Source: a virus. Taken from it: DNA of 21,936 bases. Where the stretch lies: the IMG/VR virus record IMGVR_UViG_3300007533_000367, positions 1 through 21,936 of that record; one strand, given 5' to 3'. Positions 3,653 through 10,804 of the stretch are shown here, piece by piece. A model generated the notes under the pieces. That model did no database searches, was not told where the DNA came from, and worked only from the letters and a program-made list of their open reading frames with translations. The first letter of the stretch is position 1; every line of letters starts with the position of its first letter. A program made the translations under genes and the position numbers.

Positions 3653-5008
3653 ATGGGGGACGAGGAGAAGTGGCGGGCCCGCGAGGGCCGAAATGCCGTG
3701 GAAAAGGCCAGGCGAGAGCTTGCCGGATTGGCCGATGGCATTTTGGCCGATAGTGCGATTCGCGTGGACGAATTGGTCCATCTGGCCACCTGGCTTCGGG
3801 AGCGGCGCCGGAATTTGGGGCCTGAATACGCGCCATTGGCCGAAGAGGTCGATGATGTGCTGGCCGATGGGCGAATCGATGCCGATGCGGAAATCCGCCT
3901 GCGCGACGCCCTGGTTGACGCCACGGAGCGCTGCGACCCGAGTGCGGCTATGACTCCGCAGGATGCCGCGGTGCTTCGGCTGATCGGGTTCCTCAAGGGG
4001 ATAACATCGGACCGGGAGGTGAATGAGGCAGAGCTCGGGGAGCTGGAGTACCGCCTCGATGAGCCGGAGTTGAGCCAGAGTTCGATTGCCGGCGTAATAA
4101 GGAGGACGGTCGACGCCTATGCGATGGATCCTGGGCGATTGCAGCGTTCACTGGCGGCCATCGCCGGGCATGATCCGGAGTCTGGCGTGGTTTCGGGCTT
4201 GGCTATCAGCAGCAGTTTCGACGATCCAGACGACCCGGCGGAGATTATGTTTGCGGGCTCGAGCTTCTGTCTTACGGGCTCATTTCAATACGGGCCCCGT
4301 TCGCGATGCACGGCGCGCATCCACAGCCTGGGGGGAGAATTCCATAAAACCGCGACGAGGCAAACGGACTATCTCGTGATCGGGACGATGGAGACAAAGG
4401 CCTGGGCTGGACCCAGCTACGGCCGCAAGATCGAAGCGGCATTGGCGGCACGAGAAAAGGGCCGAGGCGCGCAAATTATAAGCGAGGCGACGTGGCATGA
4501 GGCCGCGAAGCGAGCTGAGTCAAGGCGTGCGTGGACGGAGGAGGTGGATCCGGAGCAGTATTTTGCCGGATGGGTATATCGCCCGAATCGTGCACAACGG
4601 CCAGCGCTCGGTATCGAGCTACGTGAACGGATCGAGCCAGAGAAGACGAGGGCGGCGCGCGATCGGGCTATCGCGAAAGGACTCGAAAGGAAGAACGCAG
4701 CGAAGATTCGAATTACTGTTAATCGCTGGACTGCGACGCGGCCGCTCGCCTATTCGCTTCAAAGAGGCGATCTATTTCACTCGGACGGCGAAAAGCGCTC
4801 GATTCAGATCGCGCATGACGGTGAGCCGTTAGAGGTGCATTCAGATCAATCGGGCATTTGGCGGGCATATCAGATATCGGCGGCGGACTTGGCACAATGG
4901 CTGCGCACCGGCATCGAGCCCATGCAATGCCGAATCGATCCGAACCTGTGCAGGAGCGAAATTCATCGATTCCTGCTGACGGCCGAGTTGAAAAAAGCTG
5001 CAAAATAG
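3653..5008 (+). CDS. BRCT-domain protein in the immunity region
   Basis: A 451-residue protein. Residues about 20-135 hold two or more helical repeats with the ADG/ADx-I-x-x-E-L pattern (GILADSAIRVDELVHLATWL, VLADGRIDADAEIR), like the TerB/EF-hand-like helices often found before phage and bacterial BRCT domains. Residues about 199-285 are a BRCT domain: MFAGSSFCLTGSF, SLGGEFHKTATRQTDYLVIG and IISEATWHEA, with T209-G210 and W281 at the conserved places, as in NAD-dependent DNA ligase. The roughly 165-residue C-terminal part is unrecognised. BRCT domains bind DNA ends or phosphopeptides. A GGAGG at 3639-3643 supports the start. It is transcribed away from the leftward operon and converges on the repressor gene (8 bp between stops). 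By eye it is less GC-rich than its neighbours, suggesting separate acquisition. No ligase or nuclease catalytic core is visible. Confidence 0.8.
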   Translation: MGDEEKWRAREGRNAVEKARRELAGLADGILADSAIRVDELVHLATWLRERRRNLGPEYAPLAEEVDDVLADGRIDADAEIRLRDALVDATERCDPSAAMTPQDAAVLRLIGFLKGITSDREVNEAELGELEYRLDEPELSQSSIAGVIRRTVDAYAMDPGRLQRSLAAIAGHDPESGVVSGLAISSSFDDPDDPAEIMFAGSSFCLTGSFQYGPRSRCTARIHSLGGEFHKTATRQTDYLVIGTMETKAWAGPSYGRKIEAALAAREKGRGAQIISEATWHEAAKRAESRRAWTEEVDPEQYFAGWVYRPNRAQRPALGIELRERIEPEKTRAARDRAIAKGLERKNAAKIRITVNRWTATRPLAYSLQRGDLFHSDGEKRSIQIAHDGEPLEVHSDQSGIWRAYQISAADLAQWLRTGIEPMQCRIDPNLCRSEIHRFLLTAELKKAAK

Positions 5009-7452: not shown

Positions 7453-10098
7453 GTGGCGTTGATACCCGACGAGTTTATACACGAGATCCTGGCGGCGACC
7501 GACCTGGTCGAGTTGATCGGCGAAGGCTTGGCGCTGAAGAAGACGGGCGGCGAGTACCAGGCCTGCTGCCCGTTCCATGAGGAAAAGACGCCGTCGTTTA
7601 CGGTCAGTCCGCGCAAGCAGTTCTATCACTGCTTCGGCTGCGGGGCGCATGGCAATGCGATCGGCTGGCTGGTGGAGCGCGGCCACGATTTCCGCGAGGC
7701 GGTCGAGGTCCTGGCGCGGCGGCTGGGTAAGGATATTCCGCGGGCGCCGGAGACCGAGGCGCAGAAGGCGCAGCGCCGGCAGCGCGCGGCCATCGTCGAT
7801 GTGTTGGGCGAGGCCGACCGGTTGTATCGCCAGGCGCTGCGTCAGTCAGACGAGGCGAAGAGCTATTTGCGCGACACGCGCGGGCTGTCGGGCGAGGTGG
7901 CGGCTCGGTTCCGGCTGGGCTGGGCTTCGCCGGATGCGTTACGGGCGAGCGGCGTGGATGACGCGTCCCTGGTCGCGGCCGGGTTGTTGGTCCGGCGCGA
8001 TGACGGCTCGACCTATGAGCGGCTGCGCAATCGCGTCACGTTTCCGATTCGCGATCCGGCCGGGCGTGTCGTCGGCTTTGGCGGGCGCCTGATCGGTGAT
8101 GGTAAGCCCAAATATTTGAATACGCCCGAGACGGCGGCCTTTCAAAAGGGCCGGTTGCTCTATGGGCTGTATGAGTATCACACGGACCAGGACGGCGACC
8201 GGGAGTTGTTGATCGTCGAGGGCTATCTGGACGTGATTCAGCTGGCCGAGGCGGATATCAGCGCGGCGGCGACGCTGGGCACGGCCGTGACGCCGGCACA
8301 GCTGCAGGCGGCCTATCGATTCACGGATTCGCTGCTGTTCATGTTCGACGGCGACGCCGCCGGCGAGAAGGCGGCCTGGCGCGCGCTCGAGGCGGCGCTG
8401 CCGTTGCAGGACGGGCAGCGCTCGGCCCGGTTCGTGACGTTGCCGGACGGCAAGGATCCCGATGATCTGGTGCGCGAGCTCGGCCAGGCGGAATTTCGGG
8501 CGTGGCTGGATGCGAACGCGGTGCCGTTGTCGGAAAAGCTGATCGGCGGTTTGGCGAAGCGCGAGGCGGCCGCGCCGGATTCCCTCGAGGGCAGAGCGCG
8601 CCTGGTCGGGGCGGCGGCGCCATGGTTGGCGACGGTGCCCGACGGCGTGTTCAAGGACATGCTCATCGAGGAGGCGCGAAGGGCCTGGAGCTGCAAGCTC
8701 AAGACGCTACAGGAGGCCATCGCCCAGGAAGGTCGGCAGAATGCGTCAAATACGCGGTCCGGCGATCCATCACCAGTCCGGGACGGCGCCGCTCGCGCGT
8801 CCCCGCAGCCGCCGCCGCGCCGGGATGAGTCGGACCCGCTGTATTTCGATCTGGACGTGCTGCTGCGCTGTTACATCCTGATCTACGGAACGGAGACGGC
8901 CTTCGATGAGCGGTCGCGTTGCATCGTGAGCCTGGCCGCACTGCGGGCGGCGGCCAGTCGCGATACGGTCGAGGCCTGGCTCGAGCATCCGCGCCGGCGC
9001 ATCGTCGCGCGCGATGGCGTGGTGTTCGACCCGACGCGAACCGCCGACCCGCAGAAGACGGTAAATTTGTTCCGCGGATTCGAAATCGAGCCGCGCCCAG
9101 GCGACTGCTCGAAGCTGCTGCGGTTGCTGCATTACCTGTGCGGCGAGTCGGACAATATATTCGATTGGGTGCTCAAGTGGACGGCCTATCCGTTGCAGTA
9201 TCCCGGCGCGAAGATGCGCACGGCGGTGATCATGCACGGCGGCGAGGGCACCGGCAAGAACACCTGGTGGGGCGCCGTGCGTGAGATTTACGGCGAGTAC
9301 GGCGCCATCATCTCGCAGCAGGAGCTGGAGAGTCAGTTCACCGGCTGGGCCAGCGGCAAGTTGTTCATCATCGGCAATGAGGTGGTGAGCCGCCAGGAGA
9401 TGTACCACCAGTCGGGCCGGCTGCGGAACATGATCACGGAGCCGGAGTGGTCCATCAACGAGAAGCACCTGCCGAGCCGCATGGAGGCGAATCACTGCAA
9501 TCTCGTGTTCCTCGCCAACGCCCACCAGCCCGCCACGCCAAACCCGGATGACCGGCGCTATCTGGTCGTGTGGACGCCGCCGAAGCTCGACAAGGCGATT
9601 TACAAGGCGGTCGGCGACGAGCTCGCGGCCAACGGTGTGCGGGCGCTGTACGACTACCTGCTGCAACTCCCGCTGGATGAGTTCAATGAATGGACCGAGC
9701 CGCCTATGACGCAGGCCAAGGAGGATTTGATCGAGGCCTCGATGGACTCGCATGAGCGGTTCTGGCGCCAGTGGCGCAAGGGTGAATTGCCGATTGCGTA
9801 TCGGCCGTGCAAATCGATGGATGCCTATCGCGCCTATCGAAAATGGTGTGACGAGCGCGGCGAACGGGCGCCGGCCAGGGAGGCGGTGTTCCTGTCGGCG
9901 ATGGGCAAACGATTGCCGAAGCGGGTCGAGCGCTACCTCGACAGCTCGGATACCCGACAGGCGACATTCCTGGTCCCGGTCGACGACGACCTGGACGACT
10001 TCTGCCGCCAGCGCGACGGGCAATCGAAGCCGGCCTGGCTGAGCGAGCAGCTCGAGCACTTTCGCCAGGAGCTACAAGGCTGGACTGGGCAGAATTAA
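7453..10098 (+). CDS. primase-helicase fusion (CHC2-TOPRIM plus SF3-type helicase)
   Basis: An 881-residue protein. Residues about 1-100 match the DnaG N-terminus (IPDEFIHEILAATDLVELI) with a CHC2 zinc finger: C39-x2-H42 and C60-x2-C63. Residues about 140-320 follow the DnaG core, with the TOPRIM motifs VEGYLD (E256) and FDGDAAG (D299, D301). After a proline-rich linker (about residues 430-455), the C-terminal half is a DUF5906/SF3-like helicase with a P-loop GGEGTGKNT (596-604, K602) and a downstream LFIIGNEVVSRQEM block. It would both make primers and unwind DNA for phage replication, so no separate helicase is needed. It starts with GTG at 7453, preceded by AAGGG. The repeat block downstream at 10118-10377 is a fitting target. 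A separate DnaB or loader is not present in the window. Confidence 0.9.
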   Translation: MALIPDEFIHEILAATDLVELIGEGLALKKTGGEYQACCPFHEEKTPSFTVSPRKQFYHCFGCGAHGNAIGWLVERGHDFREAVEVLARRLGKDIPRAPETEAQKAQRRQRAAIVDVLGEADRLYRQALRQSDEAKSYLRDTRGLSGEVAARFRLGWASPDALRASGVDDASLVAAGLLVRRDDGSTYERLRNRVTFPIRDPAGRVVGFGGRLIGDGKPKYLNTPETAAFQKGRLLYGLYEYHTDQDGDRELLIVEGYLDVIQLAEADISAAATLGTAVTPAQLQAAYRFTDSLLFMFDGDAAGEKAAWRALEAALPLQDGQRSARFVTLPDGKDPDDLVRELGQAEFRAWLDANAVPLSEKLIGGLAKREAAAPDSLEGRARLVGAAAPWLATVPDGVFKDMLIEEARRAWSCKLKTLQEAIAQEGRQNASNTRSGDPSPVRDGAARASPQPPPRRDESDPLYFDLDVLLRCYILIYGTETAFDERSRCIVSLAALRAAASRDTVEAWLEHPRRRIVARDGVVFDPTRTADPQKTVNLFRGFEIEPRPGDCSKLLRLLHYLCGESDNIFDWVLKWTAYPLQYPGAKMRTAVIMHGGEGTGKNTWWGAVREIYGEYGAIISQQELESQFTGWASGKLFIIGNEVVSRQEMYHQSGRLRNMITEPEWSINEKHLPSRMEANHCNLVFLANAHQPATPNPDDRRYLVVWTPPKLDKAIYKAVGDELAANGVRALYDYLLQLPLDEFNEWTEPPMTQAKEDLIEASMDSHERFWRQWRKGELPIAYRPCKSMDAYRAYRKWCDERGERAPAREAVFLSAMGKRLPKRVERYLDSSDTRQATFLVPVDDDLDDFCRQRDGQSKPAWLSEQLEHFRQELQGWTGQN

Positions 10099-10138
10099 CG
10101 CTCGCGTGACAGGGTTTTGTGAAGGGTGTGAAGGGTCT

Positions 10139-10158
10139 TGTGAAGGGTACCCTTCACA
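10139..10158. repeat. perfect 20-bp palindrome within the repeat block
   Basis: TGTGAAGGGTACCCTTCACA is its own reverse complement. It is formed by a forward and an inverted copy of the 9-mer joined by TA, and is the only place where two copies face each other this closely. Confidence 0.85.
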
Positions 10159-10225
10159 GGATTTCAATAGCCGCATCATGGAGTTATGGCATGTGTGAAG
10201 GGTGTGAAGGGTCTCGGGCAAAACT

Positions 10226-10271
10226 TATACGCGCGTGCGCGCGCGTGTGCGTGCGCGCGCATACGCGCGTA
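10226..10271. repeat. 46-bp alternating pyrimidine-purine tract (Z-DNA-prone)
   Basis: Every base from 10226 to 10271 alternates pyrimidine and purine, mostly CG and TG/CA steps, with TACGCGCG at 10228-10235 and its reverse complement CGCGCGTA at 10264-10271. Such tracts take up the left-handed Z form under negative supercoiling. It directly precedes the all-A/T tract. Confidence 0.8.
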
Positions 10272-10411
10272 AATAAATTAAAAATACCCTTCACACCCTT
10301 CACACCCTTCACAGACATTGATTTTAAACGGAAAATTCTGTGAAGGGTCTCACGGTAGACCCTTCACACCCTTCACAGCACCACAACACCGACCAACGAC
10401 CGGAGAAAACG

Positions 10412-10804
10412 ATGATGACCGTAGAGACGACGACTGAGCAGTGGGCCCTGGAATATGCGCAGGAGCGACTCAAGGACTGGGCACAATGGCTGGCGAACCT
10501 GCCGGGCGTGCAGCTGAATTCGATGACGCATGCTCCCTACATCGAGGAGCGGGCCAGCGGGAAGTTCGGCGACCGGACGCTGGACGATTTCGCCATCGAC
10601 CAGACCGAGGAGGTTGAGCGGCTGATGTGCCAGCTGGCGCGCTATGCGCCGGCGCTGCACCAGGCGTTGATCCAGTGGTACCTGCGGGATATCGGGCAGA
10701 AGATGGCCGCCGATGCCTGCCGTTGCAGCGTTGCCGAGTACAAGAATCGCCGTCAGCGCGGCGAATGTTTCATTGCCGGCGGGCTGCTGAAAAAAAATCC
10801 TTGA
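10412..10804 (+). CDS. Q-like late antiterminator/regulator (sigma-region-4-like HTH)
   Basis: A 130-residue protein. The C-terminal half (EVERLMCQLARYAPALHQAL, then LRDIGQKMAADACRCSVAEY and KNRRQRGECFIAGGL) resembles the sigma-70 region-4-like HTH found in small phage late regulators and Q-type antiterminators: an initial helix of pairwise-comparison type, then an HTH and a short basic end. The start at 10412 is supported by GGAG at 10402-10405 with good spacing; the open frame upstream to 10340 runs through the repeat block and is discarded. It lies just before a candidate late promoter and terminator ahead of the lysis genes, the usual place of Q. No close family can be named, so this is a call from position plus HTH pattern. 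Confidence 0.6.
   Translation: MMTVETTTEQWALEYAQERLKDWAQWLANLPGVQLNSMTHAPYIEERASGKFGDRTLDDFAIDQTEEVERLMCQLARYAPALHQALIQWYLRDIGQKMAADACRCSVAEYKNRRQRGECFIAGGLLKKNP

Follow-up and report, generated by a model that had tools for sequence, protein, structure and literature searches.

A two-sided iteron array with an alternating core 3' of a phage primase-helicase gene: a probable replication origin

The array and its primase-helicase gene

The window (the whole stretch of DNA analyzed) is a 21.9-kb virus record in which a block of short repeats directly follows the gene for an 881-aa primase-helicase; the genes for terminase, portal, Clp protease and head proteins lie beyond the array. A Q-like antitermination gene is next after the array, as it is in phage H4907. 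The features of the locus are listed below (F, forward copy; I, inverted copy).

7453..10098, + strand: primase-helicase gene, 881 aa; presumed initiator
10118..10158, no single strand: iteron block 1, F F F I; forward copies at 10118, 10127 and 10139, inverted copy at 10150-10158
10194..10211, + strand: iteron block 2, F F; two forward copies at 9 bp spacing, forming the left edge of the core
10212..10286, no single strand: core; 75 bp separating the facing inner iteron blocks
10226..10271, no single strand: alternating pyrimidine-purine tract, 46 bp and perfect; Z-DNA-prone, and here also a near-perfect hairpin
10270..10286, no single strand: all-A/T stretch, 17 bp; candidate opening (melting) element
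10287..10313, - strand: iteron block 3, I I I; three inverted copies at 9 bp spacing, forming the right edge of the core
10339..10377, no single strand: iteron block 4, F I I; forward copy at 10339, inverted copies at 10360 and 10369

Twelve exact copies of TGTGAAGGG, six per strand, lie within 10118-10377 and none elsewhere in the window; shuffled versions of the window gave a mean of 3.4 matches over the whole window when up to one mismatch was allowed. All 12 copies can be extended to the 10-mer TGTGAAGGGT, and the unit may also be written TGTGAAGGG(T), with six forward and six inverted copies placed around the alternating tract and the A/T run. The order F10118 F10127 F10139 I10150 / F10194 F10203 / core / I10287 I10296 I10305 / F10339 I10360 I10369 is the one reported in the first-pass annotation, whose count of six forward and six inverted 9-mers, 46-bp perfect tract and 17-bp A/T stretch were likewise exact. 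Its description of the outer groups as near mirror images holds approximately (FFFI compared with FII); exact mirror symmetry does not. The first iteron begins 19 nt 3' of the primase-helicase stop codon (gene end 10098), agreeing with the placement directly after this gene. The alternating run of 46 bp compares with a next longest run of 15 bp in the window and a maximum of 26 bp across 200 Markov shuffles; the A/T run is the longest of the window (next longest, 9 bp), and the two overlap by 2 bases.

The DnaA box TTWTNCACA, a mark of DnaA-dependent iteron plasmid origins, is absent from the whole window. Short ORFs drawn over the arrays (window 10119-10343, and in relatives L118:2454-2804, L124:3854-3973 and L121:3753-3869) are probably not genes; ORFs over the arrays carry gene annotation in S1, Mcat4 and H4907. 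The start of window ORF 10340-10804 is likely 10412 instead.

Residues about 1-450 of the 881-aa protein form a DnaG-type primase (zinc ribbon, catalytic core, Toprim and DnaB-binding segment), and residues about 464-881 a DUF5906 / D5-like SF3 helicase with a predicted C-terminal winged helix. The primase half (7453-8800) is 45-50% identical to gammaproteobacterial host DnaGs, and because of this resemblance a genome-contig similarity search returned mostly host DnaG genes. The predicted structure of the helicase half had a mean pLDDT of 91.5, and at the C-terminal end of the model a helix-helix-strand-strand unit (residues about 788-840) reads as a winged helix. The best solved structural matches of this half were the NrS-1 C-terminal region (Z 28), with the poxvirus D5/E5 helicases also among them; SaPI5 PriRep1 (7ola) matched with Z 18 over 354 residues. 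The P4 origin-binding domain was absent among the structural matches listed, a list filled by whole helicases. Farther upstream, 3653-5008 encodes a BRCT-domain phage protein; it is weakly similar to the terminal part of NAD-dependent DNA ligases, but no ligase core was detected in it.

Related loci, geometry and iteron words

An IMG/VR scan for TGTGAAGGGTGTGAAGGG found 18 contigs; most of their multi-copy arrays directly follow a DUF5906 helicase gene, their gene-side copies being forward and those past the core inverted. A degenerate scan (TGTGNNGGGTGTGNNGGGTGTG) found at least 119 stretches; because the search fixed the TGTG and GGG letters, the information in this set is confined to the geometry, the linkage and the central dinucleotide. 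The first-pass annotation had proposed looking for the array next to homologous primase-helicase genes. Among the matches listed, 106 pattern-found clusters had at least four copies; 91 had a helicase in the locus, and 89 lay within 100 nt 3' of the stop of a homologous DUF5906 helicase gene (all IMG/VR phage fragments). Many of the remaining 15 clusters listed sit at contig ends. The array pattern was found in none of 369 Gammaproteobacteria genomes, and a DNA similarity search with the array region against isolated phages gave no match.

Isolated phages with such arrays are Turba, pAN, S1, Mcat4 and H4907, and the array was found in 9 of the 10 closest relatives by protein similarity (Mcat7, weak). 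The word is TGTGTTGGG in Turba, pAN and SC_9, TGTGCAGGG in Mcat4 and Mcat5, TGTGCGGGA in S1, TCAGACAGA in H4907, GGTTAGGGT in KT1 and TTTGAGACA in L001, the last having a helicase 60% identical to that of the window and a layout of the same kind. The L001 array (2460-2910) is also bordered, outside its iterons, by the two arms of a long inverted repeat, ATGCGCTATCTCTAACCCATTGATTTAATGGCGT and the complement of this sequence. Directly 3' of the gene in the distant helicases PW916 and Vibrio K294 the array is absent, and Bordetella phage BPP-1 likewise lacks a convergent array immediately after the primase gene. In BPP-1 (L260, 26200-30500) a four-copy AACGAGGC group begins about 470 nt downstream of the primase; a stem-loop origin has been proposed for BIP-1/BPP-1 type phages (PMC4234260).

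A single cluster per genome was seen in all five isolated phages, in 16 IMG/VR records and in the window (a 21.9-kb fragment). The arrangement also occurs on small plasmids. In a 9.7-kb Roseomonas plasmid the DUF5906 helicase is the only annotated replication-type gene, and TGTCCAGGG copies lie past it at F19 F90 / I207 I216 I225 / F267 F276; plasmid pMP1 (7.6 kb) has a weaker array of a different word. On E. coli plasmid pEC224_4 (L265:17479-17780), a CHC2/DUF5906-like primase gene is followed, at a distance of 300-600 nt on its 3' side, by CCCTGACC repeats in both orientations, which perhaps belong to a second replicon beside the RepB initiator of the plasmid.

The usual geometry has four blocks, FFFI / FF / core of 75-104 bp / III / FII or FFF, with a tandem spacing of mostly 9 bp. 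Counted in nt from the helicase stop, the window reads F19 F28 F40 I51 / F95 F104 / I188 I197 I206 / F240 I261 I270; L152, with TGTGCAGGG, reads F21 F30 F39 I62 / F107 F116 / I203 I212 I221 / F255 I275 I284; and L185, with TGTGTTGGG, reads F13 F22 F33 I54 / F98 F107 / I209 I218 I227 / F272 F283 F303. On an ATPase-domain tree of 50 representatives the iteron word switches at least 21 times, and TGTGAAGGG reappears in separate clades. The repeat word is replaceable and the geometry is largely kept. Core length shows some helical-phasing signal (periods 10.5 to 12.5), but the related loci are not independent and we claim no phasing.

The helicase half is the common partner of the array, since the primase halves are exchanged freely: DnaG-type in the window, with P4-type zinc ribbon/Toprim in others and PriCT-type in pAN and H4907. 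The C-terminal part is the more variable portion of the helicase half; between the window and L001, which differ in iterons, identity is 65% over the ATPase and 36% over the C-terminal part. Allowing for ATPase identity, C-terminal identity was higher in pairs that share an iteron (permutation p 5e-4, a test that ignores phylogeny). One pair with identical proteins fell into two iteron classes because its array is mixed.

The genes on the far side of the array vary: a terminase small subunit in L104 and L111, the unknown family phrog_11372 in L113 and L100, an oppositely oriented gene in Turba, and a recombinase gene or none in the plasmids. Unlike these, the upstream helicase is constant across the relatives.

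The core tract and the origin interpretation

We examined if the alternation seen in the window core is kept in the relatives. The longest alternating run averaged 17 bp in 53 non-redundant cores compared with 6.4 bp in same-size windows of the same loci, and in 45 of the 53 cores the run was unmatched by any other same-size window of the locus, so the earlier suggestion that a Z-prone tract is part of the block agrees with its conservation. The run usually lies near the left FF pair, and the AT content is higher in the right half of the core; CG/GC steps dominate the tract, with TG, CA and TA also present. Self-complementarity was 0.787 for 49 tracts and 0.789 for shuffles that preserve alternation. 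Since the two are equal, it is the alternation, a sequence signature of Z-DNA potential, that itself looks selected in the core; selection for a hairpin in the tract was rejected, self-complementarity being not above that of the shuffles. The tract is not universal: three AT-rich genomes, L100, L113 and Mcat4, do not have it.

Starting from the computed iterons, helicase linkage and position, block geometry, core alternation and predicted helicase fold, we consider it highly probable that the block is the replication origin of the phage. The primase-helicase made from the adjacent upstream gene would use its C-terminal winged helix to bind the TGTGAAGGGT iterons, and the facing iteron blocks would load rings of the SF3 helicase at either side of the 75-bp core, as the behavior of SF3 initiators and the symmetry of the array suggest. 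The core would open at the A/T run adjoining the 46-bp alternating tract; the attached primase would then prime, and the host polymerase would copy the phage, probably in both directions. The tract probably absorbs negative supercoiling by flipping to Z-DNA, and may act as a torsional switch or place a B-Z junction near the melting site. For this step, a tract that flips under supercoiling beside the melting site, we see the chances as evenly balanced.

The tract could instead be a hairpin or cruciform that serves as a single-strand initiation or priming site rather than Z-DNA, the block otherwise still being an origin. The window tract itself folds into a near-perfect hairpin (z = -3.0), and plasmid pRN1 makes use of a stem-loop that follows the rep gene (PMC4234260); however, pairing in the 49 tracts was no better than in shuffles that keep alternation, that is, alternation is conserved and pairing is not, and we regard a hairpin role as unlikely.

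The precedents described below, the single cluster, the plasmid arrays and the lack of DnaA boxes argue that the array is itself the origin and that the phage helicase opens it. The first-pass annotation had favored an origin, and the relatives keep the array together with the primase-helicase, the opposite of a helicase retained with its array lost. Cumulative GC skew, a check that it suggested, lends the origin no support: it has no turning point at the array in the window, and none was seen in Turba, pAN, S1 or H4907 either; transcription shapes skew in such phages. The skew minimum of Mcat4 lies about 1.4 kb from the array and that of P4 inside crr.

P4 crr, which shares the position 3' of the initiator gene and has similar iterons, is the model for another arrangement, in which the array would be a cis enhancer bound by the initiator and needed for replication, with synthesis starting elsewhere. 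We hold this to be improbable: a P4-like second site is not evident, as one cluster was found in the 16 IMG/VR records and the five isolated relatives, and small plasmids with the same gene-array arrangement are without a second array. Use of the array purely as an operator, with a repeat-binding regulator, perhaps the primase-helicase, acting on the antitermination gene beyond it or on late transcription, is very improbable in spite of the Q-like gene that follows in the window and H4907 and of one weak promoter-like site overlapping block 3, for the far-side gene differs between relatives and the upstream helicase is constant; dual use as origin and operator is possible.

We also propose, tentatively and with slightly less than even confidence, that these loci mark a class of temperate phages with a four-block iteron origin in which the Z-forming tract is functional, the winged helix and the iteron word switch together, and the geometry is fixed. 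In this large group of temperate phages, sequence alone would predict the position of an origin that present annotation misses or buries under spurious ORFs, and the loci would make a natural series in which to follow joint changes of initiator and iteron specificity. If the winged helix reads the iterons, swapped winged helices should swap preference (TGTGAAGGGT compared with TGTGTTGGGT and TGTGCAGGGT). Because the many non-redundant cores keep alternation while sharing neither a sequence nor a hairpin, they also open a direct way to test whether Z-DNA has a role at origins.

Comparison with known systems

The first-pass annotation knew of no described origin with this layout; PICI/SaPI origins and P4 crr are close precedents, so the layout is not wholly undescribed. 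According to PMC6092414, the PICI origin directly follows rep and has two sets of iterons around a region rich in AT, and a plasmid is maintained when it carries rep and ori; in EcCICFT073, SaPIbov1 and SaPI1 the origin is 3' of a primase / SF3-helicase initiator, as the array is in the window. The flanking iteron sets of these elements resemble the FF and III blocks of the window around a core with a 17-bp A/T run, and the window protein, by the match of its model to SaPI5 PriRep1, appears to be a primase-linked SF3 helicase initiator of the same type. The four-block geometry and the alternating tract are features of the window family that go unmentioned for PICI/SaPI origins in the accessible text of that paper. 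PICIs are satellites that use helper virion proteins, whereas the window carries its own terminase, portal and head genes; by this comparison the window is not a PICI, though its origin would work like a PICI origin.

In satellite P4, crr lies 3' of alpha and has type-1 iterons in both orientations with the 9-bp tandem unit TGTGAACAG, which shares 7 of 9 letters with the TGTGAAGGG of the window. P4 replication requires crr in cis. P4 has two separate iteron regions, ori1 being some 4.5 kb from crr, whereas the window-family phages have one cluster; crr consists of a pair of 120-bp direct repeats and lacks an alternating tract, its longest run being 7. Alpha joins a Toprim primase to a DUF5906-matching helicase and a C-terminal winged-helix origin-binding domain. 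Both alpha and the window protein match PF19263, and the window model ends in a winged helix; pairwise BLAST of the helicase halves of P4 alpha and the window detected no similarity.

The NrS-1 primase-polymerase, the best solved match of the helicase half, has a primase half of the archaeo-eukaryotic type, and its known recognition sites concern priming (PMC8718748). The origin of the archaeal plasmid pRN1 (PMC4234260) is 3' of a replication gene with primase, SF3 helicase and winged helix, like the array of the window; it is a 100-nt stem-loop without iterons, unlike that array. A literature search, mostly without subscription journals, did not find the full-size-phage class, the four-block switching geometry or the conserved Z-prone core described, and a search for the 10-mers gave no phage-origin paper among the matches listed. 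Iteron-flanked origins that follow a primase-helicase gene are thus a known kind (PICIs, P4); the novelty lies in how common the arrangement is in full-size temperate phages, in its single-site organization, in iteron words that switch within a fixed geometry and in the conservation of the Z-prone element.
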